Part shown: positions 20,525-40,571 of the stretch, in pieces
Layout: the number at the start of each line of letters is the position of its first letter
Numbering within the stretch: the first letter of the stretch is position 1
DNA from: Oscillospiraceae bacterium
Lineage (GTDB): Bacteria > Bacillota > Clostridia > Oscillospirales > Oscillospiraceae
NCBI GenBank assembly: GCA_017444665.1
Contig: JAFSWC010000031.1
Coordinates: 1-45,333 of the forward strand
Reading direction: 5' to 3'
DNA length: 45,333 nucleotides
Program-made: the position numbers and the translations under genes
The notes under the pieces: generated by a model
The model's database searches: none
Told to the model about the DNA's origin: nothing
Seen by the model: only the letters and a program-made list of their open reading frames with translations

Positions 20525-21652
20525 TTATCGTCCGGCATATTCGAGTTCCGCCGCTGCTATCTCCTGAAGCCGTGTGATGCTGTGGGCAAAAAAGGCGCGG
20601 TACGCGGCGCAGAAATAATTGACCGTTTCCCCCTCGCGCTGTATCCAGTCCCGTTTGCACCCGCCGCGGCAGATCGGAAACCAGCGGCAATCGCGGCAGC
20701 CGTCCGGGCGGCGCTCCCCTTCGGCGAGAAACCGCCGTTCCGTCTGCCCGCCTATGACAGACGCAAGCGGCTCTTCTCCGACCGTTCCCAGTCTCCAGGG
20801 GTCCAGTACGTAGAAGTCACAGGGGTACAGCCCTCCGTCCGCCTCCACGACAAGATACCTGCCGCAGTGCCCGGACGCCGTGCAGGCGCTTACTTCCCCG
20901 CCCGTCAGCAGATGAACATAATCGTCAAACTGGCGAATGCTGCAATAGCGTCCGTTTTTCCAGTCGTCATACCAGGCGTCGAACAGACGGCACAGAAAGC
21001 TGCCGTAAGCTTCCGGCGTAAGCGAAAACTTCTCTCTTCCGCGCTCTTCCCCGATCGGATCCAGGCAGGGAATAAACTGCAGATACCGCACGCCGAGACG
21101 CTTGAGGGCGCCGTACACCTGCTGCGGATGACGCGCGCAGCTTCCGGTCACCACGCACAGGAGATTGACGTCGACCTCGTATTTCTGCAGGCAGCGCAGC
21201 GCCCTTACGGCGTCGCTCCAGCTTCCTTTTCCGTTCGCATCCACCCGATTCAGATCATGCAGCCCGCGGTCTCCGTCGACCGACAGTCCGACAAGGAGGC
21301 GTTTTTCTTTGAAAAAAGCCGCCCAGGCGTCATCAAGCAGCGTCCCGTTGGTCTGGATCGAAAAGCTCACACGCTGCCTTCCCTGCGCGCAGTTCTCCGC
21401 GCTCAGGACAAAGCGCCGGAAAAAATCCAGCCCGGCCAGCGTCGGCTCGCCGCCCTGGAACGCGAAATGCAGTTCTCCGCCCTTCCCGCTCTCTTCGCAG
21501 GCCGCGCGGATCAGCTTCTCCGCCGTTTCGTCCGACATAACGCCGTAGCTTTTCTTCTCTCTCTTGTCGCTGACGTCCTCATAAAAGCAATAGCGGCACC
21601 GCAGATTGCACCGGGAGGAGGCCGGCTTGATCAGAAAGCTCAGCCGTCTCAT
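20525..21652 (-). CDS. Anaerobic sulfatase-maturing radical SAM enzyme (anSME)
   Basis: This 375-residue protein has the radical-SAM cluster motif CNLRCRYC (C17, C21, C24), then 'FAFQGGEPTLAG' (SAM binding) and 'SIQTNGTLLDD'. A C-terminal SPASM region holds further Cys ('CTASGHCGRY', 'YPCDFYV', 'CRDCRWFPICRGGCKRD', and a last Cys in 'NYFCAAY') for two auxiliary 4Fe-4S clusters. anSMEs convert the active-site Cys or Ser of sulfatases to formylglycine without oxygen. Its client should be the Cys-type sulfatase two genes upstream in the same operon. Start ATG 21652 overlaps the upstream stop by 4 nt. This is the last gene of the ten-gene leftward operon. Confidence 0.9.
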   Translation of the reverse strand: MRRLSFLIKPASSRCNLRCRYCFYEDVSDKREKKSYGVMSDETAEKLIRAACEESGKGGELHFAFQGGEPTLAGLDFFRRFVLSAENCAQGRQRVSFSIQTNGTLLDDAWAAFFKEKRLLVGLSVDGDRGLHDLNRVDANGKGSWSDAVRALRCLQKYEVDVNLLCVVTGSCARHPQQVYGALKRLGVRYLQFIPCLDPIGEERGREKFSLTPEAYGSFLCRLFDAWYDDWKNGRYCSIRQFDDYVHLLTGGEVSACTASGHCGRYLVVEADGGLYPCDFYVLDPWRLGTVGEEPLASVIGGQTERRFLAEGERRPDGCRDCRWFPICRGGCKRDWIQREGETVNYFCAAYRAFFAHSITRLQEIAAAELEYAGR

Positions 21653-22308
21653 TCTTCGGGCTCCTGCGGCCCGTCGCCGTCAGCGGCGGGCGCGGTTTCC
21701 TCCAGCGCCGCGAAGATTCCTCTCAAAAGGCCGGAATTGAAAAACGCGGTCAGCGCAAAGCCGAAGAGGAGCCAGAAAATCATCAGCCTCAGTGCCAGCT
21801 CGGCGTTCCACAGAAACAGCAGCGCCGGCAGGCAGACGGCCAGCATCATCAGCAGGGTCTTGGGCAGATAGCGCAGCGCAAGCGCAAGGCTGAGCCGGAC
21901 GTATTGCGGGATCGTGTTGGTAAAGCGCGCGATCAGCGGAAAGAGATACAGCGCCAGGCAGCCCGCGAAGAAAGCCAGCACGTAAAGCCCGTAGCGCAGG
22001 AAAGCGGGCGCCGCCGGATTCAGCTTCAGATAATACCCGTCCAGCGCAAGCAGGGCGGCCAGCGCAAAAATCAGCCCTCCCGCTTTGAGCGACACGACAA
22101 ATTCCCGTTTCCAGACCTGCCAGAAGCGCGACAGCTCCAGCTTTTCTCTTCTGGCCATGCACAGCGTGCAGCTGTACAGCGCCGTTACCGCCGCTGGAGC
22201 CGTCACCACGGGCAGACAGCACAGCAGAAACATCAGATTCAGCAGCACCAGATTGCCCATATTGTCGATCAGCCTGATCCAGGGCGAATCGCTTTGAAAA
22301 AGCTTCAT
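21649..22308 (-). CDS. YesL/DUF624-family membrane protein
   Basis: This 219-residue protein has five or six membrane helices. It starts with the family pattern 'SPWIRLIDNMGNLVLLNLMFLLCCLPVVTAPAAVTALYSCTLCM' (residues 8-51), diagnostic for DUF624/YesL. These proteins are regularly encoded in Firmicutes operons for uptake of plant or host glycans by MsmX-powered ABC importers, but their exact job is unknown. The start follows GAGGTGAGAGA. It lies between the sulfatase (9-bp gap) and the maturase (4-nt overlap). Confidence 0.85.
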   Translation of the reverse strand: MKLFQSDSPWIRLIDNMGNLVLLNLMFLLCCLPVVTAPAAVTALYSCTLCMARREKLELSRFWQVWKREFVVSLKAGGLIFALAALLALDGYYLKLNPAAPAFLRYGLYVLAFFAGCLALYLFPLIARFTNTIPQYVRLSLALALRYLPKTLLMMLAVCLPALLFLWNAELALRLMIFWLLFGFALTAFFNSGLLRGIFAALEETAPAADGDGPQEPEE

Positions 22309-22317
22309 TCTCTCACC

Positions 22318-24084
22318 TCAAAAGGTTCTGCCGTTCAGTCTCGCATAGTAGACCGCGATCTCCCGATCTTCGCCGCGCACGAGCGGAAGGAGCAGCCTTT
22401 CCATGCCCTCTCCGTCCACAGGCGTTCCCTCGTCCAGCGCGGCCAGCTTTTCTTCCGCTTCCTCCGCCAGATAAGGCAGCAGCGCGGTCAGAACGCGGTA
22501 GGTCGCCGCCGCGGCGGGACTCAGCCGAAGATGCCGCAGCTCGTTTTGCGCGGCGTAGCTCTCGCGTCTCCGCAGGATGGCGGCATAATCGTCATCGTCC
22601 AGCGCCGTTCTGTCCGCAGGCAGCCCCATGCGCTCATACTGCTCCTGCGGACAGTGGTTTTCCTTCAGCGCACGCAGCATCAGCTCAAGCATCCGCTTTT
22701 CCAGCGCGGGATCACGAAGCTCGCAAAGCTGCGCGCGGTCGGTCGCGTTGTCAAAAAGCTTTGCGCCGAAGCGGGCCATATTGGCCTGCGGCGTTTTGCG
22801 CGGGATACGAAGCACCGGCACGCCCTTTGTCCCGGCGCAGCCCGGCTCGATCGCGGCGCCGCGCAGCTCCTCAACAGAAAACATCCTGTCGTGATGGGTC
22901 GGCATGATCGTGTACTCGTTCAGCGGCTCATTGTCCGGCGTCGCGGGCGGCAGCATATAGACGTAGCGCCCGTCCGTGATATTGATATACCCGCCGTGTA
23001 TGCCGAAGAGCGCATAATCGTGCAGCTTTTTCTTTTCCTCCACGGCCGCGCGCAGCGGAAGACCGCACATCGTGTCGGGCCGCGGCAGGCCGAAGAATTC
23101 AAGCACCGTTGGCGCCAGGTCGATATTTTCCGTCAGCATATCCCGGGCCGTGCCATCCGCCTCGGGGAAACGCGGATCGTGGACAAACAGCGGCGTATTG
23201 GTCAGATCGTTATACAGCGGCATGACCGACTTCCCCCACCAGCCGTGTTCTCCCAGCAGGAAGCCGTGGTCCGTGTTCACGATCAGCATCGTGTCCTTCC
23301 ACATGTCATAGGCGTCCATTTTGTCCAGCACGCGGCCGAGCTGCGCGTCGCACAGCTTCAGCAGCTTCGCGTAGCGTTTCCGCACGCGCTCCACCACATC
23401 GCCGCTCTCCCGAACGGGGTAATACGGCGGCCAGTCATAACGCACGCCGTCCTCATCCAGATCCGGCGGCAGATAAAACGGCTCGTGCGGATCAAAGGTT
23501 TCGATCTGCAGGAAAAAATTGTCCTGATCGTGATTGCGCTCAAGAAACTCCAGCCCCAGATCGAAGGTCCGCACCATCGGCATCTCCGCCTCGCAGCGGA
23601 TCTGACGCCTGTCATTCTGGTTGGCCGTGATCGTCGGGCGCTCCGCGACGTAGGGGTTGTCCGGGCTGCCGAAGTCGTTGGAAGGATCGCAGCGGAAAGC
23701 AAGATCCGGCTTCCAGCAGTCGCCCTCCTGTCCGCGCGTGACCTCCCAGCCGGAATACCGGTTGTGATAGGTCGCGCCGCCGTCGCGCCAATAATGCCAG
23801 TGGTCGCTCATCAGCTGGCTGTGGATCCCGTTCTGCTTTAAGATCTCGGGCATCGAGTCGTCAAAGGGCTCCACCGGGCCCCAGCTGCGGTGCAGGAAGT
23901 TATATCGGCCGGTGTGCAGCTCGCGCCGCGCCGGCATGCAGGGCAGGCTGTTGGCGTAGTGATTGTCAAACCGAACGCTGTGCCGCGCAAGGCGCAGAAA
24001 GTTTGGCGTCTCCGTCCAGTCGCAGCCGTACGGCTGCAGCATTCTGCGGTTGAGCGAATCGTACATGACCATGATCGCTTTCAT
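22318..24084 (-). CDS. Cytoplasmic Cys-type (formylglycine) S1 sulfatase
   Basis: This 588-residue protein has the sulfatase signature 'CMPARRELHTGR', with Cys49 in C-x-P-x-R, the residue turned into formylglycine. Other landmarks are the N-terminal Asp9 strand ('IMVMYDSLNR'), 'MLIVNTDHGFLLGEHGWWGK' for the metal site, and 'NDLTNTPLFVHDPRF'. No signal peptide is visible, so it should act inside the cell on imported small molecules. S1 enzymes hydrolyse sulfate esters, not C-S bonds. The dedicated maturase lies in the same operon, as does a sulfoquinovosidase 45 bp upstream. The start follows AAGGAGG. The exact substrate is unknown and its presence here is unexpected. Confidence 0.9.
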   Translation of the reverse strand: MKAIMVMYDSLNRRMLQPYGCDWTETPNFLRLARHSVRFDNHYANSLPCMPARRELHTGRYNFLHRSWGPVEPFDDSMPEILKQNGIHSQLMSDHWHYWRDGGATYHNRYSGWEVTRGQEGDCWKPDLAFRCDPSNDFGSPDNPYVAERPTITANQNDRRQIRCEAEMPMVRTFDLGLEFLERNHDQDNFFLQIETFDPHEPFYLPPDLDEDGVRYDWPPYYPVRESGDVVERVRKRYAKLLKLCDAQLGRVLDKMDAYDMWKDTMLIVNTDHGFLLGEHGWWGKSVMPLYNDLTNTPLFVHDPRFPEADGTARDMLTENIDLAPTVLEFFGLPRPDTMCGLPLRAAVEEKKKLHDYALFGIHGGYINITDGRYVYMLPPATPDNEPLNEYTIMPTHHDRMFSVEELRGAAIEPGCAGTKGVPVLRIPRKTPQANMARFGAKLFDNATDRAQLCELRDPALEKRMLELMLRALKENHCPQEQYERMGLPADRTALDDDDYAAILRRRESYAAQNELRHLRLSPAAAATYRVLTALLPYLAEEAEEKLAALDEGTPVDGEGMERLLLPLVRGEDREIAVYYARLNGRTF

Positions 24085-24129
24085 GCGCCTGTTCCTCCTT
24101 TTGGGTTTTTATCGTGTCCTCTGCGCTTT

Positions 24130-26127
24130 TTAAAACTGCCCGGCGATCGCGGCGAAGAGCGCGGCGTCCGGGGCAGACGCGCGGTAGAATACCGGCGGAT
24201 AGCCAAGCGGCGCGTCGACCGTGATTTCTCCCCCGCCGCAGCGTTTGCCGCTCCACAGATGGACCCAGTCGTCCGCGGGAAGATAGAGCGAGCGCGTCTG
24301 TGCGCCCTCCTCGTATACGGGCGCCACCAGTACGTCGCGGCCGAGAAGATATTCCGTCTGCTCCGTCAGGCAGCGCGGATCACTTTCGTAGTGCAGCAGC
24401 AGCGGGCGCTGTACGCCGATGCCCTTTTCGCTGTTTTCCTTCACCGCCTTGCGCAGATATGGCGCAAGCGCGGCGTAGATGCGCGTAAGACGGCCGAAGC
24501 GCACGATGCAGTCCTCATCGTCATAGTACTGGAAATTATCATCCGGCCGGTTTCCCTCGTGCGTACGCATGACCGGGCTGAAGGCGGCCATCTCCGCCCA
24601 GCGGAGAAACAGCTCCTTCGTCCGGCAGTTTCCGAACAGCGACGTATAGCCGCCGATATCGCTGTGATTCAGTCCGCAGCCGCACATGGCCGCGCTCAGC
24701 GTACCGGAGACGACGGAGATCAGCCCGTCGTGCACGCTGAAGTCCACGCTCTGATCGCCCGCCCAAAGCAGGGGGCAGTATTTCTGCGTCCCGACGCCGC
24801 CGGCGCGCATAAAGACCAGCGCTTCCCCCAGCAGGCCGCACTCCGTCAGCGCCTCATAATTGCACCGGGCCCACAGCACAGGCCATGCGTTGTGCGCAAG
24901 CATGGGGTCCTCGCCGCTGAAAAGGCGAACGTCGATCGGCAGATACTCGCCGAAGTCCGCCATCCATCCGCGCAGCCCGAAAGCGATCAGGTTTTTCTTG
25001 ATGATCTCCTTGAACCACGCAAAGGCGGCCGGATTGGTAAAGTCCACGACGCCGCAGTAGAATTCGCCGAAGTCGACGAGATAGATCTCGCCCTTGTCGT
25101 TCAGCGCAAAATAGCCCTTTTCCGCGCCCTCCCGGAAGAGCAGACCGTCGCTGACGAGATACGGGTTGATATAGCCGAGAAAGCGGATGCCGTCCTTTTC
25201 ATACGCCTTGATCTGCTCCGGCAGACCCGGATACATGCTCTCGTTCCAGCGCCAGTCCCACTGCAGGCGCTTGCCGAAGGAGGTGACTCGTTTTCCCTCC
25301 CAGTCCTGGCACCACACGCCCGACACGGCGACGCCCAGCCGACGAGAGCGTTCCACAAGCTCGCTCACGCGCTCTGTGCCGCCCTGCAGGCCCAGGATCG
25401 CTCCGTTATACACCCAGTCCGGCAGCACGCTCTGACGCCCAAAAAAGGCGCTCAGATCGCTTACAAGCGCAAGCAGGCTCTCCCCCGTACGGATCCGGAT
25501 CCGGCTCGGCACCGCCCAAAACTGCAGCTCGTGGAAGCTCTCGTGCCGAAAGTCGAAATTGGCGTACGCCGTGCAGTCCGCCCACAGCCAGTAACGGCGG
25601 GACGAGACAAACAGCGGCGCGGGGAAATTGGTGTTGTAATAGTCGCCGCCGGCCTTGTTCTCCACGTCCGAGCGCCATGTCACATAGGTGCTTTTGTCGC
25701 GGCCGACTCCGGGCTCCGACGTCCACAGCGGGAAATGCCTTCCCCGCAGGTCAAAATACGACATCTGCTCGCCGCAGCCGTAGCAGTGCTCGTTCTTCTC
25801 CGCCGGAACTCTCAGCCAAATCCGGTTGATATCCGGGTCAAGCGCGGTAAACACAAGCTCCAGCGTGTCGCCGTCGTCGCTGCTGATCGCAACGCGCAGC
25901 AGGCTTTCAAACGTGAGCTCCACCCCTGCTTCTGTCTTCTCCGCGGAGAAGCTGCGGAGCGGGATGCGGCTCTCGACGTAATCTTCGATTTTGAAATTGC
26001 CCCGATACATATCGATCGAAGGCTCTCCCCGACCGACAAAAAGCATGGGAGCCTCCGAGCTGTGGCTCAGTAGCTCCCCGACACGGCTGCAAACAGACAG
26101 GGTCCCGTTATCGCAGCGAATATCCAT
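24130..26127 (-). CDS. yihQ: Sulfoquinovosidase, GH31, YihQ-like
   Basis: This 665-residue protein aligns along its length with E. coli YihQ (as I recall that sequence), with a constant offset of 14 residues through the catalytic core. The nucleophile is D391 ('GWMADFGEY') and the acid/base is D458 ('LLWAGDQSVDF'). The sulfonate-binding QQRWY set is complete: Q248 ('LGLQGG'), Q274 ('VWCQDW'), R287 and W290 ('FGKRLQW'), and Y494 ('HSDIGGY'). It should cleave alpha-sulfoquinovosides such as sulfoquinovosyl glycerol, releasing sulfoquinovose. With no signal peptide it should be cytoplasmic. It is seventh in the import operon, 6 bp after the Gfo/Idh gene, with an AGGAGG site. An ordinary alpha-glucosidase is unlikely because of the sulfonate residues. 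Confidence 0.92.
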   Translation of the reverse strand: MDIRCDNGTLSVCSRVGELLSHSSEAPMLFVGRGEPSIDMYRGNFKIEDYVESRIPLRSFSAEKTEAGVELTFESLLRVAISSDDGDTLELVFTALDPDINRIWLRVPAEKNEHCYGCGEQMSYFDLRGRHFPLWTSEPGVGRDKSTYVTWRSDVENKAGGDYYNTNFPAPLFVSSRRYWLWADCTAYANFDFRHESFHELQFWAVPSRIRIRTGESLLALVSDLSAFFGRQSVLPDWVYNGAILGLQGGTERVSELVERSRRLGVAVSGVWCQDWEGKRVTSFGKRLQWDWRWNESMYPGLPEQIKAYEKDGIRFLGYINPYLVSDGLLFREGAEKGYFALNDKGEIYLVDFGEFYCGVVDFTNPAAFAWFKEIIKKNLIAFGLRGWMADFGEYLPIDVRLFSGEDPMLAHNAWPVLWARCNYEALTECGLLGEALVFMRAGGVGTQKYCPLLWAGDQSVDFSVHDGLISVVSGTLSAAMCGCGLNHSDIGGYTSLFGNCRTKELFLRWAEMAAFSPVMRTHEGNRPDDNFQYYDDEDCIVRFGRLTRIYAALAPYLRKAVKENSEKGIGVQRPLLLHYESDPRCLTEQTEYLLGRDVLVAPVYEEGAQTRSLYLPADDWVHLWSGKRCGGGEITVDAPLGYPPVFYRASAPDAALFAAIAGQF

Positions 26128-26133
26128 CTTTCC

Positions 26134-27201
26134 TTATCCTCCTGTTCTCTCCCAGCGCCCCGTCTTGGCGGAGCGGGCAACTGTATCCATCACACGCTGA
26201 ACGGCGATCCCGTCATAGAGCGAAGCCGCCAGTCCGCTCCCGTCACCCCGCAGCAGTCTCTCAAAGGCCTCCATCTGCGTGCAGCGGAATTCTTCCGGGA
26301 TCGCAAGCGGAACATAGCGATTGGCGCGAAAATCCTCTTCGGTCAGACAGCCCTCCAGGCTGCTGCACAGCTTTCCGCCGATCAGGTCCTGCCTGTAGAG
26401 CAGGCCTCCCTTCGAGCCGTATATCGCAAGCTGCTGCAGATTCCGGTGCCCGTACGCGAAGCGTGTGGTCTCCAGCATGGCGCTCACGCCGCCGGACAAT
26501 CTGGCCAGGAACATGGCGTAATCGTCTACCGTCACCTCGCCCTCTCCGCCTTCCGGCAGGATGCGCTTCGGCATCAGCACGCCCATGTCCGCCGTTACGG
26601 ACTCGATCTCTCCGGCGGTAAAGCGGACCAGATCGATCAGATGCGATCCGAGATCGCCCAGCGCGCCGTAGCCGGCCAGCTCTCTGCGAAAGCGCCAGGA
26701 AAGCGGACGGCTCTCGTCGTTGCCCCATCCCTGGTCGTACCGGGCAAATACATGCCGCAGCTGCCCCAGGGCGCCGCTTTTCACCAGATACCGCGCATAA
26801 CGCGCGGCGTCCATAAAGCGATAGGAGAAGCAGATCATATGCGGGATCGGCCTTTCCCCCATCCGCTCCTTCAGATCCAGCGCCTGCTCCATCGTCAGAC
26901 ACAGCGGTTTTTCCACCGCAAAGGGGACCCCCGCCTCGATCGCCGCCCTGACCATCTCGTAGTGCTGCACGTTCGGCGTGCAGATCGAAACCGAATCGAC
27001 TTCTCCGGACGCAAGCAATTCCCGGTAATCCGAAAAGCGCAGTCTCTCCGGAACGCCCAGTTCTTTCCCTACCCGGGCAAGCGTTTCCGCGTTCCGCGTG
27101 CAGATTGCGGCGACGCGCATGCCCTCAAGCTGCGCGATGCCGCCGATATGCTCCTGTGCGATATTACCCAGCCCGATGATGCCGTGGCGGATCTGCTTCA
27201 T
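26134..27201 (-). CDS. Gfo/Idh/MocA-family NAD(P)-dependent oxidoreductase
   Basis: This 355-residue protein has an N-terminal Rossmann fold ('HGIIGLGNIAQEHIGGI', residues 5-21), the family 'EKPLCLTM' motif (Lys about residue 95) and 'GDLGSHLIDLVRF' in the C-terminal domain. Members oxidise or epimerise sugars; some work as NAD-dependent glycosidases. A Gfo/Idh/MocA-related family of NAD-dependent sulfoquinovosidases is known, so a second SQ-glycoside hydrolase is one possibility, and sugar dehydrogenase another. I choose ATG 27201; a TTG at 27222 overlaps the upstream stop. It lies directly before the GH31 enzyme and 17 bp after the zinc dehydrogenase, so it probably acts on the same imported sugar. 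Confidence 0.82.
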   Translation of the reverse strand: MKQIRHGIIGLGNIAQEHIGGIAQLEGMRVAAICTRNAETLARVGKELGVPERLRFSDYRELLASGEVDSVSICTPNVQHYEMVRAAIEAGVPFAVEKPLCLTMEQALDLKERMGERPIPHMICFSYRFMDAARYARYLVKSGALGQLRHVFARYDQGWGNDESRPLSWRFRRELAGYGALGDLGSHLIDLVRFTAGEIESVTADMGVLMPKRILPEGGEGEVTVDDYAMFLARLSGGVSAMLETTRFAYGHRNLQQLAIYGSKGGLLYRQDLIGGKLCSSLEGCLTEEDFRANRYVPLAIPEEFRCTQMEAFERLLRGDGSGLAASLYDGIAVQRVMDTVARSAKTGRWERTGG

Positions 27202-27218
27202 GTCGCTCGTCTCTCTTC

Positions 27219-28163
27219 TCAAAAGCGCAGGATGGATTTGATAAAATTCCCGGAGCGCGCGGTCGATTCCTCCATCGCCCGCTCAATGTCGGTAAAGTCA
27301 TATTCGTGGGTGATCAGCCGGCTTTGCTCGATCTTGCCCAGCTGCATCAATCGGTCTGCTCCGATCCAGGGGTTGAGATACTCCTTCTTGCAGACCAGCC
27401 AGTGGTTGACGTTCAGCAGCGACAGTCCCTTGGTGTGCCACAGATGGCCGTCGAACGTACGCTGGCCGTGATGCCAGGCGTAAACGCCGAGTTTTCCGCC
27501 TTTCCCCAGCAGCCTTTCGCAGGAAGAAAAGCAGCTTTGCACGCCCGCGCACTCAAAGGCGATCTCAAAGGGCTCGTTCTCCAGTTCTTCCAGCCTGGCG
27601 CGTCCCTCCGCCGTCGAGCTGTCGATCAGTTCCGTCGCGCCGTACAGCCCGGCAAGCTCCAGATTCTGCTTTTTGATATCCGCCACCACAAGCCTTGACA
27701 GCGGATACTGGCATAATAGCTGCACCAGCAGCAGGCCCATGTAGCCGGCGCCGAACAGGATCACGCTGTCGCCGGGATAGATGTTCAGCTCGTCCGCCGC
27801 CGTCACGACACAGGATACCGGCTCGACGAGATGCGTTTTCAGTTCGAAGTCCGGATTCGGATGGATCGGCAGAAAACGCCCGACGGGAATGTTGACATAC
27901 TCGCCCCAGGTCGTGGTCGTAACAAGGTCTCCCTCTTTTACGTCCGCCACGTCAGAGCCGACTTTTGCAACGATACCGATCCCCTCGTGTCCCGGGAGGA
28001 TCGGCTCGTTGTGATGAACGCCTGTGTATTTCCAGACCTCCGCCATACAGATGCCGTTGTACAGCGTTTTGGCCTGGATCTCGTTTGGCTGCGGATCGCG
28101 CAGTTCAATCTCGCGCAGATAGACGTGACGGGTCCCGTCGAAGAAAGCGGTCAGGCTCTTCAT
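27219..28163 (-). CDS. Zinc-type medium-chain alcohol/polyol dehydrogenase
   Basis: This 314-residue MDR protein has a GroES-like domain with zinc-site residues C39 ('NGICMAEVW') and H-E in 'LPGHEGIGIVAKVG'. Its Rossmann domain begins 'SVILFGAGYMGLLLVQLL' (about residues 133-150). The structural-zinc four-Cys lobe is missing, as in shorter sugar and polyol dehydrogenases (sorbitol or threonine type). The usual substrates are secondary alcohols of sugars. It is co-transcribed between the ABC permease (9-bp gap) and the Gfo/Idh enzyme, and the two redox enzymes may form an oxidation-reduction pair on a sugar carbon. Substrate is not determined. Confidence 0.82.
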   Translation of the reverse strand: MKSLTAFFDGTRHVYLREIELRDPQPNEIQAKTLYNGICMAEVWKYTGVHHNEPILPGHEGIGIVAKVGSDVADVKEGDLVTTTTWGEYVNIPVGRFLPIHPNPDFELKTHLVEPVSCVVTAADELNIYPGDSVILFGAGYMGLLLVQLLCQYPLSRLVVADIKKQNLELAGLYGATELIDSSTAEGRARLEELENEPFEIAFECAGVQSCFSSCERLLGKGGKLGVYAWHHGQRTFDGHLWHTKGLSLLNVNHWLVCKKEYLNPWIGADRLMQLGKIEQSRLITHEYDFTDIERAMEESTARSGNFIKSILRF

Positions 28164-29024: not shown

Positions 29025-29028
29025 ACGA

Positions 29029-30729: not shown

Positions 30730-30758
30730 GCCTGCACCCCTGTCCTTAATAAAGCAAA

Positions 30759-30790
30759 GCGGCCCGCAGCTCACGGGAGTTGCGGGCCGC
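30759..30790 (-). terminator. Hairpin after binding-protein gene (attenuator or mRNA stabiliser)
   Basis: GCGGCCCGCA and TGCGGGCCGC (10-bp perfect arms) are followed on the minus strand by TTTGCTTTATT. Its place between the binding-protein gene and the rest of the operon suggests partial termination or 3' end protection, which would make more binding protein than permease. Confidence 0.65.
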
Positions 30791-32147: not shown

Positions 32148-32245
32148 GTTCTTTCCTTCCTTTTTTCGGTATAATTTCCGCTTTTCATTATATTACGGCG
32201 GCAGCCAAATACCGGGAGATCCCCTTTTTCACGATCTCCCTGCAA

Positions 32246-32266
32246 TTGATTAACGCCGTAAAATAA
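32246..32266 (-). promoter_or_regulatory. Operator-like palindrome 1 (import operon)
   Basis: In the direction of transcription it reads TTATTTTAC-GGC-GTTAATCAA, an imperfect palindrome just downstream of the predicted start. It matches the palindrome at 34790-34810 at 17 of 21 positions and the one at 34913-34933 at 14 of 21. Confidence 0.6.
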
Positions 32267-33430: not shown

Positions 33431-34771
33431 TCAGTACCGGCATACCTCAAAGCCGTACATGCTCGCCAGCGCCTCCAGCGCGGCAGCGTGGCGGCCTTTT
33501 ATCACGACGAAGTGCGGCTCAAAGCCGTCCTTCACGCTCTTCTCCACGACCTCGCGCGCGGGGCTGTCGGTCTTGACGACGATCGACGTGCCGATAAACT
33601 GCTTGGGCTTGTCAAGCGCCTCGCCCTCGGTAAGGAAGAAGCGGAAGAAGCCGTCCGGCTCGCGGCCGATGCGGAAGATCGTGGCCTCCGGGAAGGCCTC
33701 GCAGCCAAAGTCCATCGCCGGGCCGATCTTGCGGTTGGGGTGCACGCCGACGACCGCGCCGGTGTCACGCCGTGCCAGACTACAGGCGGCCGCTCCGCAG
33801 TGCCAGAAGGTCACGGTGTTCTCGCCCTCGTCAAGCGAGACGGGGTCGCCAAAGAACACCGGCTCGCCGGAGAGCTGCATGCCGATCCACATCGACAGCG
33901 CGCCGTAGATATCCGCCTCGCACGCGGCGGCAACGCCCTCGTCGTTGAGCATGGACAGCACCGTGCACACCGGCGTGCCGAAGGCCGTAAAGAAATCCGG
34001 CCAGCAGCGGGAGGCCAGCGCACCGATGTTGTGCTCGCGCACGTAATCGCTGTAGGCCTTGAGCAGCCGCGCGTGGTCAATGCGGTTATGCTCCGGCGTC
34101 CTGTCAAGACCGCAGGTCATCTGCTCAGTCTTTTCAAGATACGCGGCAACTTCCTCGTCCGTATAGGTCTTGGCCTTGTCGATCAGCTCGCGCGCCTCGA
34201 TCGCCTCCAGCTCCACGCCGAAAGCGTTCATCAGCTCACTGTCGAGCGCCCGGCCAAAGCCAAAGCCCTGCGGCGTATGGCCAACGGCGGACATTTTCAG
34301 ACTGCGCATCCCTTTTTTCAGCGCCGCCGCCTTCACAACAGCCTCGATCGTCTCGCGCGAGCGCTCCTCGGAAGGCGCCCCGAAGAGATATTCAAAGCTG
34401 CGGTCGTCAAAGGCGCGCAGCGCGTTCGCCGCGCTGTAAGCGCCGGTGAGCGAATTGAGGCGCAGCCGTCCCCCGTCGATCACGGGCTCGCGCAGCGTCC
34501 ACAGAAGCATGGGGCAGTCAAAACGGCGCAGCACCTCGGACATATAGGCCGCGTTGGCAAAGGTCAGATTCTGAAACACGATCAGATCGGGCGCAAGCGT
34601 ATCGAGATACGCGCGCAGATCGTCAAGATTCAGCAGCATCTTGTCCGGTACGGCAAAGCGCTCGTCGATGCTTTTTAAGAGCGCGACAGAAGCGTCAAAC
34701 TGGGCCTGCGCGCTTTCCAGATGAAAGGTCGGCACGCCGACCGGGATATAGACGGGAGAAAAGGATTTCAT
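33431..34771 (-). CDS. Fucose/arabinose-isomerase-like aldose-ketose isomerase, probable sulfoquinovose isomerase
   Basis: This 446-residue protein has the three-domain L-fucose isomerase layout. Likely metal ligands are E285 and D287 in 'CEADIYGALSM' and H324 in 'FWHCGAA'; 'SRCWPDFF' (about 254-261) is another family landmark. It is shorter than true L-fucose isomerase (about 590) and near the size of the divergent fucose-isomerase-like proteins. In this context the expected reaction is sulfoquinovose to 6-deoxy-6-sulfofructose (the SqvD/SftI step). It has its own strong promoter and a shared operator, and is divergent from the transketolase genes. Another hexose isomerisation cannot be excluded from sequence alone. 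Confidence 0.78.
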   Translation of the reverse strand: MKSFSPVYIPVGVPTFHLESAQAQFDASVALLKSIDERFAVPDKMLLNLDDLRAYLDTLAPDLIVFQNLTFANAAYMSEVLRRFDCPMLLWTLREPVIDGGRLRLNSLTGAYSAANALRAFDDRSFEYLFGAPSEERSRETIEAVVKAAALKKGMRSLKMSAVGHTPQGFGFGRALDSELMNAFGVELEAIEARELIDKAKTYTDEEVAAYLEKTEQMTCGLDRTPEHNRIDHARLLKAYSDYVREHNIGALASRCWPDFFTAFGTPVCTVLSMLNDEGVAAACEADIYGALSMWIGMQLSGEPVFFGDPVSLDEGENTVTFWHCGAAACSLARRDTGAVVGVHPNRKIGPAMDFGCEAFPEATIFRIGREPDGFFRFFLTEGEALDKPKQFIGTSIVVKTDSPAREVVEKSVKDGFEPHFVVIKGRHAAALEALASMYGFEVCRY

Positions 34772-34837: not shown

Positions 34838-34879
34838 CAGAAAACCAAAAAGATTTCCCCTTTTTCCCGCGCTTCTCCC

Positions 34880-34908: not shown

Positions 34909-34912
34909 TCAA

Positions 34913-34933
34913 TTAGTTAAACCTTTTAATCAA
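34913..34933 (+). promoter_or_regulatory. Operator-like palindrome 3 (transketolase promoter)
   Basis: TTAGTTAAA-CCT-TTTAATCAA covers the predicted start site. It shares the arm TTAATCAA and 14 of 21 positions with the import-operon palindrome. Confidence 0.6.
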
Positions 34934-34950
34934 ATTAGGAGGAACTGACA

Positions 34951-35778
34951 TTGAACAAGGATCTTAAAGAACTCTGCAAGGATATCCGCTGCGATATCAT
35001 GACCTGCATCGGTCACTTGGGCGTCGGCCACATCGGCGGTTGCCTCTCCGTTGTCGAGCTGTTGGCCGTGCTGTATTTTGAAGAGATGAACATCGACCCG
35101 GCAAACCCGAAGATGGAAGGCCGCGACCGCTTCGTCTGCTCAAAGGGTCACGCCGGCCCCGCCGTGTATGCCACGCTGTCCAACCGCGGCTACTTCGGCA
35201 AGGAAGAGCTCCTGACGCTCAACCAGGGCGGCACGCACCTGCCCAGCCACTGCGACATGAACCTCACCACCGGCATCGATATGACGACCGGCTCCCTCGG
35301 CCAGGGCTTCTCCTGTGCCGTGGGCGTTGCGCTCGGCTCCAAGCTTGCCAAAGACGGCGCCACGATCTACGCGCTGATCGGCGACGGCGAATCGCAGGAA
35401 GGCCAGATCTGGGAGGCCGGCATGTTCGCCGCCTCCAAGAAGCTTTCCAACCTCATCGCCTTCACCGACTACAACAAGCTTCAGATCGACGACACGGTCG
35501 CCAAGGTCAACGACATCGCCCCGCTTGCCGACAAGTGGAAAGCCTTTGGCTGGAACGTGATCGACGTGGAAGACGGCAACGACGTGGACCAGGTCTCCGC
35601 CGCTGTCAAGCAGGCCAAGCGCAACCGCACGACCGACAGGCCCACCATGGTCATCCTCAACACCCGCAAGGGCTGCGGCGTCAAGTGGATCGAGGATCTC
35701 GGCGCCGGCAACCACAACACCAACATCAGCGAGGAGCAGGCCCGGGCCGCCATTCGCGAAATCAGAGGGGAGGACTAA
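34951..35778 (+). CDS. Transketolase N-terminal subunit (probable sulfo-TK subunit)
   Basis: This 275-residue protein starts at TTG 34951, about 8 nt after AGGAGG. It is the thiamine-diphosphate pyrimidine/PP half of a split transketolase: 'CIGHLGVGHIGGCLS' (active-site His), 'FVCSKGHAGPAVYA', and the ThDP motif 'GDGESQEGQIWEAG' ending in 'FTDYNKLQIDD'. It must pair with the C-terminal subunit 4 nt downstream. In the sulfo-TK route this enzyme (SqwGH) removes two-carbon units from sulfofructose and then from sulfoerythrulose, passing them to glyceraldehyde-3-phosphate. Split transketolases also serve the pentose-phosphate path, so the assignment rests on the surrounding genes. Codon bias suggests strong expression. 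Confidence 0.9.
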   Translation: MNKDLKELCKDIRCDIMTCIGHLGVGHIGGCLSVVELLAVLYFEEMNIDPANPKMEGRDRFVCSKGHAGPAVYATLSNRGYFGKEELLTLNQGGTHLPSHCDMNLTTGIDMTTGSLGQGFSCAVGVALGSKLAKDGATIYALIGDGESQEGQIWEAGMFAASKKLSNLIAFTDYNKLQIDDTVAKVNDIAPLADKWKAFGWNVIDVEDGNDVDQVSAAVKQAKRNRTTDRPTMVILNTRKGCGVKWIEDLGAGNHNTNISEEQARAAIREIRGED

Positions 35779-35782
35779 TCAC

Positions 35783-36706
35783 ATGGAAATGAGAGCTGTT
35801 TACGCCGAATGCCTGGCGAAATTCATGGAAGAGGACAAGCATGTCGTCGTCCTCGACGCCGACCTGGCCAAGGCCAGCGGCACCCGCAAGCTGTACGAGC
35901 AGTTCCCCGAGCAGATGTTTGACTGCGGCGTGGCCGAGCAGGATATGGCCTCCATCGCGGCCGGTCTTTCCAGCTATGGCTTCAAGCCCTGGATCGAAAG
36001 CTTCACGCCCTTTGCCACGCGCCGCATCTGCGACCAGATCGCGATCTCGATCTCCTATGCCAAGCAGAACGTCAAGATCGTCGGCACCGACCCCGGCATC
36101 TCGGCCGAGCTCAACGGCGGCACCCATATGAGCATGGAGGATATCGGCGTCGTCCGCTCCATCCCCGGCGTCGTCATTTTCGAGCCTGTGGACGAGACCC
36201 AGCTGCGCGCCGCGATGCCCGTCCTCAACGACTACTACGGCCCCGTCTACATGCGTCTGTTCCGCAAGGTCACGCCCGACGTGTTCGGTCCCGACTACAA
36301 GTTCGATCTCTTCAAGGCCGATACGCTGCGCGAAGGCAATGACCTCTCCATCTTCGTCTCCGGCATGTTCACCCGCGACGTCGTCGACGTTGCCGACGAG
36401 CTGGCAAAAGAGGGCGTCACCTGCGACGTGATCAATGTCCACACCATCAAGCCTATCGACCGCGAGACCGTTATTGCCTCCGCCCGCAAGACCGGCGCCG
36501 TTCTGACCGTGGAAAACCACAACGTCATCGGCGGTCTGCACTCCGCCGTGTGCGAGGCTCTTGCGCTCGAGCGCGTCCCTGTCAGCGCCTTTGGCGTGCA
36601 GGACCGCTTCGGCGAAGTCGGCAAGGTCCCCTACCTGCGTCAGGCTCTCGGTCTGACGAAGGAAGACATCCTCGCCGCCGCCCGCAAGGCCGCGTCCCTC
36701 AAGTAA
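35783..36706 (+). CDS. Transketolase C-terminal subunit (probable sulfo-TK subunit)
   Basis: This 307-residue protein carries the catalytic Glu of the ThDP site in 'FDCGVAEQDMASIAAGL', the aromatic 'SFTPFATRRICDQI' segment, 'ELNGGTHMSMEDIGVVRSIPG' and the C-terminal regulatory fold ('TLREGNDLSIFVSG', 'NVHTIKPIDRETV'). It completes the split transketolase encoded just upstream, which it follows by 4 nt after a GAGGGGAGGA site. The two subunits should form a heterotetramer with the active site at the interface. Confidence 0.9.
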   Translation: MEMRAVYAECLAKFMEEDKHVVVLDADLAKASGTRKLYEQFPEQMFDCGVAEQDMASIAAGLSSYGFKPWIESFTPFATRRICDQIAISISYAKQNVKIVGTDPGISAELNGGTHMSMEDIGVVRSIPGVVIFEPVDETQLRAAMPVLNDYYGPVYMRLFRKVTPDVFGPDYKFDLFKADTLREGNDLSIFVSGMFTRDVVDVADELAKEGVTCDVINVHTIKPIDRETVIASARKTGAVLTVENHNVIGGLHSAVCEALALERVPVSAFGVQDRFGEVGKVPYLRQALGLTKEDILAAARKAASLK

Positions 36707-36719
36707 AAACACAAAACCC

Positions 36720-36751
36720 GCTCCATGCGCCCATTCAGCGGCGCATGGAGC
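36720..36751 (+). terminator. Intra-operon hairpin
   Basis: GCTCCATGCGCC and GGCGCATGGAGC (12-bp perfect arms) have only TTTCC after them. It is more likely an mRNA stability or partial termination element than a full stop, since the next genes lack an obvious promoter. Confidence 0.5.
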
Positions 36752-36802
36752 TTTCCAACGAGGAAATAAAACAATGCCGTCAAGCGGCAAAAGGAGTTCA
36801 TT

Positions 36803-37279
36803 ATGAAGATTGCAATCGGCAGCGACAAATCCGGTTTTTCCGCCAAAGAGGCCATCAAGGCCTATCTCACCGAGGCGGGCATTGAATTCGACGATCTCGG
36901 CACCCGGGATCTCGACCACGTCATCCCCTATTACGCCGTGGCCAACAAGGTCGCTCCCCTGGTCCAGAACGGCACCTATGACAAGGCCGTCCTGATCTGC
37001 GGCACCGGCGCCGGCATGTGCGTCGTCTCCAACAAGTTCAAGGGCGTCTACGCCGTCGCCTGCGAGGGCGTGTACTCCGCCAAGATGGCCCGTGCGATCA
37101 ACAACGCCAACATTCTCGCGATGGGCGGCTGGATCGTCGGCCCCGAGATGGCCGTCGAGATGACCAAAACCTTCCTCGCAACCGAGTGGTGCCAGGATCT
37201 GGAGGATTGGCGCAAGGAGAACATGAAGAAGTTTGCCGTTCAGGTCGCCGCGATCGAGGATGAGATCTATGGCAAATAA
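36803..37279 (+). CDS. RpiB/LacAB-family isomerase, probable sulfoerythrose isomerase
   Basis: This 158-residue protein has the family landmarks 'MKIAIGSDKSGF', 'VLICGTGAGMCVVSNKF' (catalytic Cys66) and 'RAINNANILAMGGWIVG'. Against E. coli RpiB, phosphate-binding His10 is Lys9 and ring-opening His99 is Ile99 here, and the C-terminal arginine pair is not clearly kept. This fits a substrate that is not a pentose phosphate. 4-Deoxy-4-sulfoerythrose has no C4 hydroxyl and cannot form a furanose ring, so it would not need the ring-opening His. LacB also lacks that His, so the evidence is supportive only. It would play the role of SqwI. It overlaps the next gene by 11 nt. Confidence 0.82.
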   Translation: MKIAIGSDKSGFSAKEAIKAYLTEAGIEFDDLGTRDLDHVIPYYAVANKVAPLVQNGTYDKAVLICGTGAGMCVVSNKFKGVYAVACEGVYSAKMARAINNANILAMGGWIVGPEMAVEMTKTFLATEWCQDLEDWRKENMKKFAVQVAAIEDEIYGK

Positions 37280-38366
37280 TTTCGTCTATTCCCAGCCGGT
37301 CAAGATCTTCTTCGGCGAGGGCAAATTCGCCTCTCTCGCCGATATTCTTGCCGAGCTTGGCGTGGAGCGCTGCGTCATCGCCTGCGGGAAGCATTTTGCC
37401 CCCCAGGCCGAGAAAATGCGCGAGGAGATCGACGCGATCGTCGGCGTGTTCGGCGGCGTTGAACAGAACCCCCAGCTCTCCGGCATCATCGAAACGGTCA
37501 AGCTCTGCCGTAAATTGAACGCCGACGCCGTCATCGGAATCGGCGGCGGCAGCTCGCTTGACACGGCCAAGTTTGCGGCCGCCATCAGCCTTGGCGACGG
37601 CGAGGCCGAGGAATACTACCGCGGCACGCGTCCCTTCCCGGACAAGCGTCTTACGATCATCGCCGTCCCGACGACGGCCGGCACCGGCAGCGAAGTCACG
37701 CAGGTCTCCGTCGTCTCCCACGGCACCGAGAAAAAGACCATTAACAATCCGGTCTTCATGCCCCGCGCCGCGATCGTCGACCCGGTCCTGTCTTCCACCG
37801 TTCCTCCGCGCACGACGATGAACACCGGTCTCGATGCGCTTGCCCACGCCCTTGAAGGCTACTGGAGCCGCAACCATCAGCCGATCTCCGACCTGATGGC
37901 GATCGAGGCCGTCCGCATCATCCTTGCCAATCTGGAAAAGGCCTACCGCGACGGCTCCGACATGGAAGCGCGCGGCAATATGGCCTATGCCGCCCTGCTC
38001 GGCGGGCTGTCCTTTGCCCTGCCCAAGACCGCGGCCAGCCACGCCTGCAGCTATCCGCTCAGCGAGGATTATCATCTTCCCCACGGCGAAGCCTGCGCCT
38101 TCACGCTCGACAGTCTTGTTCGCATCAACGCGGACGAGCGGCTTGAATACCTCTGCCGCGCCGTCGGTCTTTCCGGCACGGACGAGCTGGCCGATCGAAT
38201 TGCCGCGCTCAAGGCCCTCGGCGGCCTGCGCACGCGTCTTTCCGATCTCGGCGAGGTCGATCTTGACAAGCTCTGCCGCGACTGCGCCGCGCATCCCCTG
38301 ATGAACAATAACCCGGTCCGCTTGGACGAGGCCGCTCTGCGGAGGATGTTTGAAGCGCTGAAATGA
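37269..38366 (+). CDS. Iron-containing alcohol dehydrogenase, probable sulfoacetaldehyde reductase
   Basis: This 365-residue group III dehydrogenase has 'GIGGGSSLDTAKF' (NAD binding), 'AVPTTAGTGSEVTQVSVVS', and metal ligands in 'NTGLDALAHALEGYWS' and 'SHACSYPLSEDYHLPHGEACAF'. In the sulfo-TK route the final step is reduction of sulfoacetaldehyde to isethionate, re-oxidising NADH (the SqwF role). Position directly after the isomerase (11-nt overlap) and before the exporter supports this. ATG 37269 is chosen because the family begins a few residues before 'PVKIFFGEGKF'. A general aldehyde reductase is the alternative. Confidence 0.85.
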   Translation: MANNFVYSQPVKIFFGEGKFASLADILAELGVERCVIACGKHFAPQAEKMREEIDAIVGVFGGVEQNPQLSGIIETVKLCRKLNADAVIGIGGGSSLDTAKFAAAISLGDGEAEEYYRGTRPFPDKRLTIIAVPTTAGTGSEVTQVSVVSHGTEKKTINNPVFMPRAAIVDPVLSSTVPPRTTMNTGLDALAHALEGYWSRNHQPISDLMAIEAVRIILANLEKAYRDGSDMEARGNMAYAALLGGLSFALPKTAASHACSYPLSEDYHLPHGEACAFTLDSLVRINADERLEYLCRAVGLSGTDELADRIAALKALGGLRTRLSDLGEVDLDKLCRDCAAHPLMNNNPVRLDEAALRRMFEALK

Positions 38367-39331
38367 AAGAGGGACTGAAAAACGCCGGCATGATCGGCGC
38401 GATGGTCGTCTCCTGGTCGATCTACTATGCCGTGTCCAAGGTCATGGTCAGCGCTACCGGCTCGCCTTATCTTGCGGGCTTTCTGCTACGCAGCGCCGCG
38501 CTGCTCTTCTTAACGGCGCAGCTGCTCCTTGACAAAAACTTTGCCCGCCTCTTTCATCAGGGCAAAGCCGTTCTGATCCTTGTCGTGATCGGCGTCTTCG
38601 GCTTCCTGCTCGACCTCTTTGCCAACCTCGGCTACGCTCACGGCGCGCTGTCCACCGGCACGGCGCTTCTCAAAACCGACGTGCTGATGGTCAACCTCGT
38701 CACAGTGATCCTCTATCACAAAAAGCTCTACCTTTCCGACTGGATCGGTACGCTTGTCATGCTCTTCGGCGTGCTGCTTGTTCTGGGGGTCGACTTCGGC
38801 GGGATGCGCCTGAATCCGACCGACCTGTTTTTTATCCTCAGCGCCATGTGCGTTACGGCAAACGCCTTCATCATCAAAACCGCGCAGGAGCGTTTTCACG
38901 AGGACGCCGACATGATCTCGTATTACAACAACTTTGTCGTGCTCGTCCTCTTCGGTTCGTCCGCTGCTTTTGTCGGTGATCTTCGCCTTCCGGCTGCCGA
39001 AGCGCTCCACAGTTTCTGGTGGCTCGTCCTGCTCGGCGGGCTCGCGCAAACCGGCATCTATTTCTTCTACTACCGCAATCTCAAGCATTATGAAGTCTGG
39101 GTCGTCAAGCTCTATCTGCTGCTGATGCCTGTGGTCAGCTGCTTTATCGGCGTTCTCTTCCTCGACGAGGAGCTTACGCTGAAAAAAGCGCTCGGGATCC
39201 TGGTCGTGCTGCTCGGCGCGGCGGTCATCCTGCTGCGCAGCAAGCTCCACCGGGAAGAGACTCTTCCCGACGATCAGCTTCGGCACCACCATCATCACCA
39301 CCACGATCACCGCGTAAAGAACCATCACTGA
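38363..39331 (+). CDS. EamA-type transporter with His-rich tail, probable sulfonate exporter
   Basis: This 322-residue protein has ten membrane helices in two EamA repeats (residues 8-140 and 150-290), typical of the drug/metabolite transporter superfamily. 'YYNNFVVLVLFGSS' and 'GIYFFYYRNLKHYEVW' fall in the second half. After the last helix it has a soluble tail with seven consecutive His and further His residues ('HHHHHHHDHRVKNHH'), encoded at 39283-39330. Its start overlaps the dehydrogenase stop by 4 nt. In context it is a good candidate for export of isethionate, the dead-end product. The His tail may bind metal or be neutral drift. Confidence 0.8.
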   Translation: MKEGLKNAGMIGAMVVSWSIYYAVSKVMVSATGSPYLAGFLLRSAALLFLTAQLLLDKNFARLFHQGKAVLILVVIGVFGFLLDLFANLGYAHGALSTGTALLKTDVLMVNLVTVILYHKKLYLSDWIGTLVMLFGVLLVLGVDFGGMRLNPTDLFFILSAMCVTANAFIIKTAQERFHEDADMISYYNNFVVLVLFGSSAAFVGDLRLPAAEALHSFWWLVLLGGLAQTGIYFFYYRNLKHYEVWVVKLYLLLMPVVSCFIGVLFLDEELTLKKALGILVVLLGAAVILLRSKLHREETLPDDQLRHHHHHHHDHRVKNHH

Positions 39332-39350
39332 AGAAAGAGGTGAGCTTAGC

Positions 39351-40571
39351 ATGCCATACGAAGGCGACAACATGATGGGCGTCAAACGCACCAATCGCAG
39401 CGCCGCGCTGCGCGTTCTGCACGAGAGCGGCAGCATGTCGCGCAAGCGCCTGTCAGAGAGCATCAAGCTCACCCCGGCCGCCATTACCAAGATCGTCGGA
39501 GAAATGATCGCCGAAGGCCTGTTGACCGAGGGCAGCCTTCTGCCCGGCAGCGGCGTCGGCCGGCGCGAGGTCATGGTTGAGCTCAATCACCATGCCCACA
39601 GTGCGCTTGGCATCTTCATCAATCTCCGCCAGGCTGTCCTTTCGGCCGTCTGGCTCGACGGAGCGGTCATTTTCACGGAAAGGCTCGTTCTTCCCGAGCA
39701 CGCCCCCGCCGACGAGACCGTCTCCTTTCTCTGCGATCGTCTCCTGGCTCTCGCCGAGGCGAACGGGCTCAAGCGCGCTGAGATCCTCGGCGTCGGCGTG
39801 GCCATGCGCGGTCTTGCCTCGTCGGATGCGAGGGTCGTTCAAAACAGCTTTGGCGCGCTTGATACCTTTGACTATCCGATCTGTGACCGGGTGGAAACCC
39901 TGACCGGCCTGAAATGTGTCATGAGCAACAACGTCCGCGCGCTTTTCTCCGCCCAGATGTTTCTGTCAAGGGACCGCAGCCTCGGCAGCCAGTTTTTCCT
40001 CCGCTGCGAGGTCGGCATCGGCGCCTCCTTCGCGATTGGCGAAAAGATCTGGCTCGGCAGCTCCGGTCAATGCGCAGAGATCGGCCATATCCCCGTCATC
40101 AAGCGCGGCGGAAAGCCCTGCTCCTGCGGCAAAACCGGCTGTTTAGAGACGATCGCGTCCCCCAGCGCCATCCTGCGCGACGCGCGCGAACTGCTGGACG
40201 CAGATCGTGCGCCGGTCCTCTATCGTCTTTCACAAGCCCGCGATAACGGGCTTCCGACCCTGGACGACGTTTTTGAAGCTGCCCGCAGCGGCGACGGTGA
40301 GATCGCGGCCCTGGTCGACCGAGCGGTCGAAGCGCTCTCTGCCGCGCTCAAAAGTGTGATCTACACGCTCGATCCCGGCAAGATCGTCCTGTACGGCGGC
40401 ATGTTTGACAATCCCTATTATCTTTCCAAGCTGATCGCCGAGATGCGCGAGGGCGTTGATTCATCCCACAGTGTGCCGATCGAGCCCAGCCGTCTCAATC
40501 ACTGTCTGGAGGATAAAGCTGCGCCGCTTCTTGTGGTCGAAGACTTCTTTGCAAACGGCGGTCTTTGCTGA
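39351..40571 (+). CDS. ROK-family transcriptional repressor, probable regulator of the locus
   Basis: This 406-residue protein has an N-terminal winged helix-turn-helix ('NRSAALRVLHESGSMSRKRLSESIKLTPAAITKIVGEMIAEGLL', residues 14-57). A ROK sugar-binding domain follows, with zinc motif 'CSCGKTGCLE' and 'CAEIGHIPVIKRGG' (metal-coordinating His). Such NagC/Mlc/XylR-like proteins repress sugar operons until the sugar or its product binds. It is the last gene of the transketolase operon (19 bp after the exporter). The most likely targets are the three related palindromes at 32246, 34790 and 34913. The inducer would be sulfoquinovose or an early intermediate. Confidence 0.9.
   Translation: MPYEGDNMMGVKRTNRSAALRVLHESGSMSRKRLSESIKLTPAAITKIVGEMIAEGLLTEGSLLPGSGVGRREVMVELNHHAHSALGIFINLRQAVLSAVWLDGAVIFTERLVLPEHAPADETVSFLCDRLLALAEANGLKRAEILGVGVAMRGLASSDARVVQNSFGALDTFDYPICDRVETLTGLKCVMSNNVRALFSAQMFLSRDRSLGSQFFLRCEVGIGASFAIGEKIWLGSSGQCAEIGHIPVIKRGGKPCSCGKTGCLETIASPSAILRDARELLDADRAPVLYRLSQARDNGLPTLDDVFEAARSGDGEIAALVDRAVEALSAALKSVIYTLDPGKIVLYGGMFDNPYYLSKLIAEMREGVDSSHSVPIEPSRLNHCLEDKAAPLLVVEDFFANGGLC

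Follow-up and report, generated by a model that had tools for sequence, protein, structure and literature searches.

A probable sulfo-transketolase regulon with a sulfatase gene in its importer operon in an Oscillospiraceae bacterium

Organization of the Locus

Positions 20,525 to 40,571 of contig JAFSWC010000031.1 from an Oscillospiraceae bacterium (assembly GCA_017444665.1) contain 18 genes, which probably form a regulon for the degradation of sulfoquinovose (SQ), the sugar of plant sulfolipid, by the sulfo-transketolase (sulfo-TK) route. The window, which is the whole stretch of 45,333 nucleotides (nt) that was analysed, represents contig C85 of a genome of 1.63 Mb in 94 contigs with a completeness of 69%; the source is a gut bacterium, probably from a ruminant. 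The genes are organized in two divergent blocks, with a second MBL-fold gene on the plus strand and the gene for an SQ isomerase on the minus strand in between (Table 1). On the minus strand, ten genes follow each other closely, never more than 54 nt apart, in the order solute-binding protein, MBL-fold protein, two ATP-binding cassette (ABC) permeases, zinc-type (MDR) dehydrogenase, Gfo/Idh dehydrogenase, GH31 glycosidase, sulfatase, DUF624 protein and maturase. The plus-strand block consists of the genes for the N- and C-terminal halves of a transketolase, an RpiB-type isomerase, an iron-containing alcohol dehydrogenase, an EamA transporter and a ROK protein. The GC content lies between 0.57 and 0.63 for each gene across the locus, with no sign of recent import.

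An earlier sequence-only reading had described this stretch as a complete sulfo-TK locus, reaching from import to probable isethionate export. The genes listed there are real, each being an open frame without internal stop that falls into the expected family. The sulfatase, the maturase, the DUF624 protein, the Gfo/Idh and MDR dehydrogenases and the two MBL-fold proteins had been overlooked.

Table 1. Genes and predicted operator sites at the locus (positions are those of the window).
Feature	Position	Strand	Family match or other basis
Anaerobic sulfatase maturase (anSME-type radical SAM/SPASM)	20525..21652	-	TIGR03942, 379.6 bits, over cut-off 349.45; PF04055, PF13186
DUF624/MusI-type membrane protein	21649..22308	-	PF04854; MusI family, 91.6 bits (below its cut-off of 160)
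Sulfatase, Cys-type (C49-M-P-A-R53)	22318..24084	-	PF00884
GH31 sulfoquinovosidase (YihQ/SftG type)	24130..26127	-	NF007746, 965 bits, over cut-off 553
Gfo/Idh/MocA dehydrogenase	26134..27222	-	nearest levoglucosan and scyllo-inositol dehydrogenases
Zinc-type (MDR) sugar/alcohol dehydrogenase	27219..28163	-	PF08240/PF00107
ABC sugar permease	28173..29045	-	50-54% identical to near-full-length permeases of related sulfo-TK loci, L078 (26%) excluded
ABC sugar permease	29029..29889	-	51-57% identical to permeases of related sulfo-TK loci, L078 (30%) excluded
MBL-fold hydrolase 1	29944..30774	-	weak MBL-family matches
ABC solute-binding lipoprotein, first gene of the run	30822..32147	-	family match
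Predicted ROK operator (weaker site), upstream of importer/sulfatase operon	32244..32266	-	18.7 bits
MBL-fold hydrolase 2	32495..33376	+	PF00753; start picked by eye (ATG behind GGAGGG)
Sulfoquinovose isomerase SqvD/SftI (predicted)	33431..34771	-	NF048012, 394 bits over almost the full length
Predicted ROK operator, just downstream of sqwG promoter	34913..34935	+	23 bp; 38.2 bits
SqwG (predicted), transketolase N-terminal subunit	34951..35778	+	TktA positions H26, H66, H100, D155, N185, H261 kept
SqwH (predicted), transketolase C-terminal subunit	35783..36706	+	TktA positions E411, H473, R520 kept
SqwI (predicted), RpiB/LacAB-type isomerase	36803..37279	+	TIGR00689, 116 bits, over cut-off 88.3
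SqwF (putative sulfoacetaldehyde reductase), iron-containing alcohol dehydrogenase	37269..38366	+	family match
EamA/DMT transporter, putative isethionate exporter	38363..39331	+	PF00892
ROK-family (NagC-like) repressor, predicted	39351..40571	+	PF00480; NagC model, 145 bits (below its cut-off of 650)

The Sulfo-TK Core

All 18 genes were compared with NCBIfam. For comparison to other genomes, named genomes were scanned with an alignment of the isomerase, which gave at least 459 confirmed relatives among the candidates, and the best 80 loci (L040-L119) were examined. In these, genes were counted at E<=1e-8 with partial matches included; since the loci are mutually related and often truncated, these counts are incomplete and not independent of each other. 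By title, the best 80 relatives belong to Oscillospiraceae, Ruminococcaceae, Clostridia, Clostridiales and Eubacteriales, with a few Bacillota, Lachnospiraceae and Christensenella, and many of their isolate names give ruminant sites.

For the isomerase, the SQ isomerase model is the only NCBIfam match at E<=1e-5, and no match was obtained against the PDB. Residues E285 and D309 of SqvD align with E337 and D361 of Escherichia coli FucI, an hhalign alignment with a probability of only 3.4%; these are two of the three residues which we take to be the metal ligands of FucI. The transketolase N-half is divergent from the isomerase in 79 of the 80 loci, the exception (L049) having its isomerase about 200 bases from the contig end, and where the spacer between the two genes was measurable (77 loci), its length lies between 20 and 700 nt. 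Of the other genes, the C-half was found in 76 loci, the RpiB-type isomerase in 71, the iron alcohol dehydrogenase in 62, the EamA transporter in 54 and the ROK protein in 40, while a GH31 protein of either kind (see below) was identified in 64. At the position of TktA residue 30, Cys or Ser is found in 83 sulfo-TK N-halves, compared to Val or Asp in six others; in the C-half, the positions of R358 and D381 were unreadable, since its start aligned poorly. The only other match for SqwH in the recovered genome lies in a frame which by eye looks like DXS.

For none of the 18 genes was the best match a family that marks another SQ route (sulfofructose kinase, aldolase, transaldolase or dehydratase). 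The genome-wide search for these routes covered transaldolase, for which no match was obtained in the recovered genome (69% complete), while 10 of 14 control genomes gave one. A variant of the sulfo-TK route has been described in which sulfoacetaldehyde is oxidised to sulfoacetate by SqwD/SqwKL instead of yielding isethionate (PMC12890257, PMC11659671). Such a variant is very unlikely here, since in the window sqwI is followed by an iron alcohol dehydrogenase and not by a CoA-acylating dehydrogenase with a CoA ligase; no search for SqwD/SqwKL was made outside the window.

Of 18 related genomes, 17 have a DUF4867 gene (SqvB/SftX), the exception (G004) being of the source's own genus, and some of the sulfo-TK clusters described in PMC11968277 are without it. 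In two genomes (G238, contig C64; G062, contig C44), it shares a contig with the sulfo-TK genes, at roughly 6-7 kb from SqvD, and in two others (G036, contig C12; G187, contig C49) a distance of about 470 nt separates it from a different match to the fucose isomerase family. In four loci (L017, L019, L020 and L027), an isomerase distantly related to SqvD (24-26% identical) adjoins another split transketolase (N-half 39-42%), a pair which perhaps acts on some other sugar in an analogous pathway.

The Sulfoquinovosidase and a Second Kind of GH31 Protein

The best PDB match of the GH31 protein, with 969 bits, is 6pnr, the sulfoquinovosidase SftG of E. rectale (PMC11968277). The protein shares 53% identity with YihQ of E. 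coli and keeps YihQ residues 262, 288, 301, 304 and 508 (QQRWY) as well as both catalytic aspartates (Asp405/Asp472). We take QQRWY to represent the sulfonate/SQ contacts of YihQ, a motif that was not found in print. Among the 80 related loci, 54 near-full-length GH31 proteins were identified in 52 loci, 27 with QQRWY and 27 with QQQWF, two loci containing both. The QQQWF proteins are 35-38% identical to the GH31 protein of the window, and because this second kind occurs in the same kind of locus and fails the QQRWY test, the test is a discriminating one. The two kinds also differ in the transporters beside them: an ABC importer is present in 16 of 25 loci with QQRWY only and a GPH-type symporter in 2, compared to 1 and 20, respectively, of the 25 loci with QQQWF only. 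The QQQWF proteins may form a second class of SQ glycosidases, perhaps the one termed 'long branch' yihQ in PMC13219744.

The closest isomerase relative (95% identical) among the best 80 of at least 459 is found in L040. Its GH31 protein is only 51% identical to that of the window over the 64% that was matched, so that an exchange of the importer and glycosidase block is possible.

It is very unlikely that the locus is an ordinary pentose- or hexose-phosphate cluster with an accidental likeness to a sulfo-TK locus. The transketolase, RpiB and alcohol dehydrogenase models that were matched are general ones and would fit such a cluster, whereas the isomerase matches the SQ isomerase model alone, the QQRWY-type GH31 protein is encoded in the same locus, and isomerase and transketolase occur together in 79 of the 80 loci.

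A Predicted Operator Shared by Both Transcription Units

The spacer between sqvD and sqwG contains TTGACA, a spacer, TTACAAT and then TTAGTTAAACCTTTTAATCAAAT, the predicted ROK operator, which is recognisable in the sqvD-sqwG spacers of many relatives; at three mismatches or fewer, none of 100 shuffles matched. A weight matrix was built from the sites in the spacers of 42 of 77 relatives (31 distinct sites), with the window excluded. When the window was scored, the two sites in Table 1 were followed by an independent match with 7.6 bits, and the highest score in 20 block-shuffled windows was 16.2 bits.

The 77 related loci (1.34 Mb) were scanned, each with a matrix from which its own site had been removed. 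This revealed 29 further sites of at least 15 bits, whereas shuffled DNA (530 kb) contained no such site. Of the 29, 20 (in 15 loci) are located just upstream of an importer binding protein, while no called gene lies near the other 9, which are spread over 6 loci (L053, L054, L061, L069, L081 and L090). By eye, the operator precedes ABC-type binding proteins in L054 and L061. In L053 (13460) and L090 (8898), it precedes a gene which by eye resembles a TctC-type (tripartite tricarboxylate) binding protein, possibly a third type of SQ importer.

The core operator is present in 23 of the 27 loci with a QQRWY-type GH31 protein, compared to 6 of the 27 with the QQQWF type, the two loci with both kinds being counted twice. 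No operator was found upstream of the QQQWF GH31 genes, where the best of 27 regions scored 6.0 bits. In the source's own genome, a loose operator pattern at two mismatches matched in five places, while a reversed control pattern gave no matches. Two of the five are the sites of the locus; those on C14, C22 and C92 were rejected as operators, as they resemble a palindromic repeat in several copies. This intergenic repeat (TTATCTGATTAAA...TTTAATCAGATAA) is present in the genome in at least three copies (C14:3940, C22:2629, C92:1627).

The operator-like site ahead of the ten-gene run, together with the same placement in relatives, makes it probable that the sulfatase operon is part of the SQ regulon. 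This suggests such a membership and is not a proof of it.

Assessment of the Assignment

Taken together, the family assignments, the SQ-contact residues in the glycosidase and the gene order kept in many related genomes support the assignment of the locus as a sulfo-TK regulon of the isethionate-making type, with an importer operon that includes the sulfatase, and we estimate its probability at roughly 0.9. The sulfo-TK assignment of the sequence-only reading is supported in this respect, also by its agreement with the pathway described for Oscillospiraceae in PMC13219744.

Several observations weigh against this assignment. The isomerase stays below the cut-off of 700 bits for NF048012, which was passed by none of 250 genomes of the source's bacterial family. 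No SqwGH, SqwI or SqwF model is among the NCBIfam matches of the locus genes, and for the iron alcohol dehydrogenase the match to TIGR03405 (206 bits) is higher than that to the sulfoacetaldehyde reductase SarD (171 bits), both being under the cut-off; in family and position, this dehydrogenase does agree with SqwF. The catalytic transketolase positions do not separate sulfo-TK from other split transketolases (six N-halves and three C-halves compared). Of the families that the sequence-only reading had relied on, the isomerase did match the SQ isomerase model, but the transketolase and the dehydrogenase matched general or neighbouring families. For the proposed ABC importer, two permeases and a solute-binding protein were identified, but no ATPase gene beside them in 20525-40571. 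A DUF4867 gene was not found in the recovered genome, which is 69% complete, itself a point to be counted here; the control genomes were also without a match. No operator-like site was present in the spacers of 35 of the 77 relatives, and when the AT-rich importer spacer was simulated, 15 of 5000 sequences reached 18.7 bits, so that the site at 32244-32266 alone is only suggestive. With no importer ATPase and no DUF4867 gene found in an incomplete genome, the description of the locus as complete was too strong.

The Sulfatase and the Accessory Genes

In the sulfatase, C49 to R53 (CMPAR), D9, D272 and H273 are invariant in six aligned sequences. C/S-x-P/A-x-R is presumably the motif of formylglycine sulfatases; it is intact here, and the maturase encoded in the same run scores above its family cut-off. 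The sulfatase is probably cytoplasmic, because no N-terminal signal is apparent by eye.

It is quite possible, though we judge it somewhat short of even odds, that the sulfatase, the maturase, the Gfo/Idh and MDR dehydrogenases and the MBL-fold protein belong to an unrelated sugar or inositol module and are passengers which share the importer operon. At E<=1e-8, the sulfatase, the maturase, the MDR dehydrogenase and both MBL-fold proteins have no match in the 80 related sulfo-TK loci, and the Gfo/Idh protein has one weak match. At E<=1e-3 in 91 loci, four weak matches of 39 to 67 bits were obtained, two for the Gfo/Idh protein (L078, L037) and one each for MBL-fold hydrolase 1 (L072) and the maturase (L116). 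Of 300 genomes, 7 have a close relative of the sulfatase (E<=1e-60), the source being one of them. In the six other sulfatase stretches (6 to 20 kb), SqvD, transketolase and GH31 were found in none and a maturase in three; one of them (L132) gave weak matches for the MDR (93 bits) and ROK (80 bits) proteins. No conserved association of sulfatase and SQ genes was thus found in the 80 loci or in these six stretches. The combination of Gfo/Idh, MDR, MBL-fold and ABC proteins further resembles what we take to be an inositol operon of Thermotoga, for which a literature search found nothing, and the scores of MDR against IolM (74 bits) and of Gfo/Idh against IolG (111 bits) are far under the cut-offs. 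Against a passenger role, the genes lie within the ten-gene run around the sulfoquinovosidase, their GC content is like that of the remaining locus, and the operator-like site of the SQ regulon is located ahead of the run.

The MDR gene is the only match to itself at E<=1e-40 in 300 genomes of the family and at E<=1e-45 in 391 genomes of the class, as is the gene for MBL-fold hydrolase 1 at E<=1e-35 in the 300 family genomes. The Gfo/Idh protein was also considered as an SqgA (GH188) sulfoquinovosidase and rejected: the SqgA structures 8qc2 and 8qc3 (PMC10755693) gave 92 and 80 bits, compared to 153 for the best match, and with the middle stretch of 187 residues neither was matched at E<=1e-8.

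Outside the regulon, an integrase-like frame at 4144-5427 (by eye) adjoins a tRNA-Val gene at 5558-5633 and is perhaps the end of an integrated element. A long repetitive frame on the minus strand (41805-45332), which by eye is like that of a surface protein, runs off the window.

Proposed Pathway

Judged from the sequences, an SQ glycoside such as SQ-glycerol would enter the cell through the ABC importer, and the GH31 sulfoquinovosidase would hydrolyse it. SqvD would convert SQ to sulfofructose, from which SqwGH would transfer one C2 unit to glyceraldehyde-3-phosphate. The resulting sulfoerythrose would be isomerised to sulfoerythrulose by SqwI, and after removal of a second C2 unit by SqwGH, the sulfoacetaldehyde would be reduced to isethionate by SqwF, with the EamA transporter as the probable exit. 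The ROK protein is likely to repress both divergent transcription units via the 23-bp operator, a repression probably relieved by SQ or a derivative. The sulfatase, the maturase, the two dehydrogenases and the MBL-fold protein may broaden the substrate range, for example, to a glycoside bearing a sulfate ester.

In its widest form, the proposal would be that one SQ regulon under a single ROK operator handles both the sulfonate (C-S bond, by sulfoglycolysis) and a sulfate ester (C-O-S bond, by a cytoplasmic sulfatase with its own anSME), releases isethionate and sulfate to the community, and, with the Gfo/Idh, MDR and MBL-fold proteins, opens an additional oxidative path for these glycosides. 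In this full form, we consider the proposal unlikely.

Comparison to Known Systems

The sulfo-TK route with isethionate as product is described in PMC9594981, PMC13219744 and PMC11659671. In cow rumen samples, it is reported as the predominant SQ route, occurring in Ca. Limivicinus (Oscillospiraceae; 35.5% of 313 genomes), Caproiciproducens and Sphaerochaetaceae (PMC13219744, 2026). The set of SftI/SqvD, SqwG, SqwH, SqwI, SqwF and YihQ given there, with isethionate as product, is the same as that predicted for the window, and the family is presumably the same; the likeness is one to the gene set as described, not to the DNA. A similar set of SqvD, SqwGH, SqwI and SqwF is described for Clostridium sp. 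MSTE9 (Liu et al. 2021, according to PMC9594981 and PMC11659671). However, MSTE9 has a candidate for an SqvB-kind mutarotase, which was not found in the recovered genome of the source, and the MSTE9-type SqwE is called a sulfite/sulfonate transporter (PMC12890257), whereas the window contains an EamA protein instead.

The bifurcated sulfo-TK/sulfo-TAL system described for Faecalicatena (PMC11659671) shares with the window a transketolase of the SqwGH type, an ABC importer and, as the candidate for export, a drug/metabolite permease. It contains transaldolases and an SqgA-like sulfoquinovosidase, in contrast to the source, for which no transaldolase was found and the sulfoquinovosidase is of the GH31 type. 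The sulfo-SFT system of E. rectale provides, with SftG, the closest solved relative of the GH31 protein, but cleavage is described there as being catalyzed by a transaldolase, unlike the sulfo-TK route proposed here (PMC11968277).

The word sulfatase is absent from the main texts of PMC13219744, PMC11659671 and PMC12890257, and literature searches for a sulfatase with SQ and for ROK operators with SQ gave nothing on point among the matches listed. While the sulfo-TK route has already been described for Oscillospiraceae, the sulfatase and its maturase in what appears to be the same operon look like the unusual feature of this locus.

Implications

The sulfo-TK route supplies isethionate to sulfite-respiring bacteria that form hydrogen sulfide. 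The predicted operator may define an SQ regulon in many genomes. In the bacterium described here, the locus would couple the use of SQ to the hydrolysis of sulfate esters in an apparent single operon, which is unusual.

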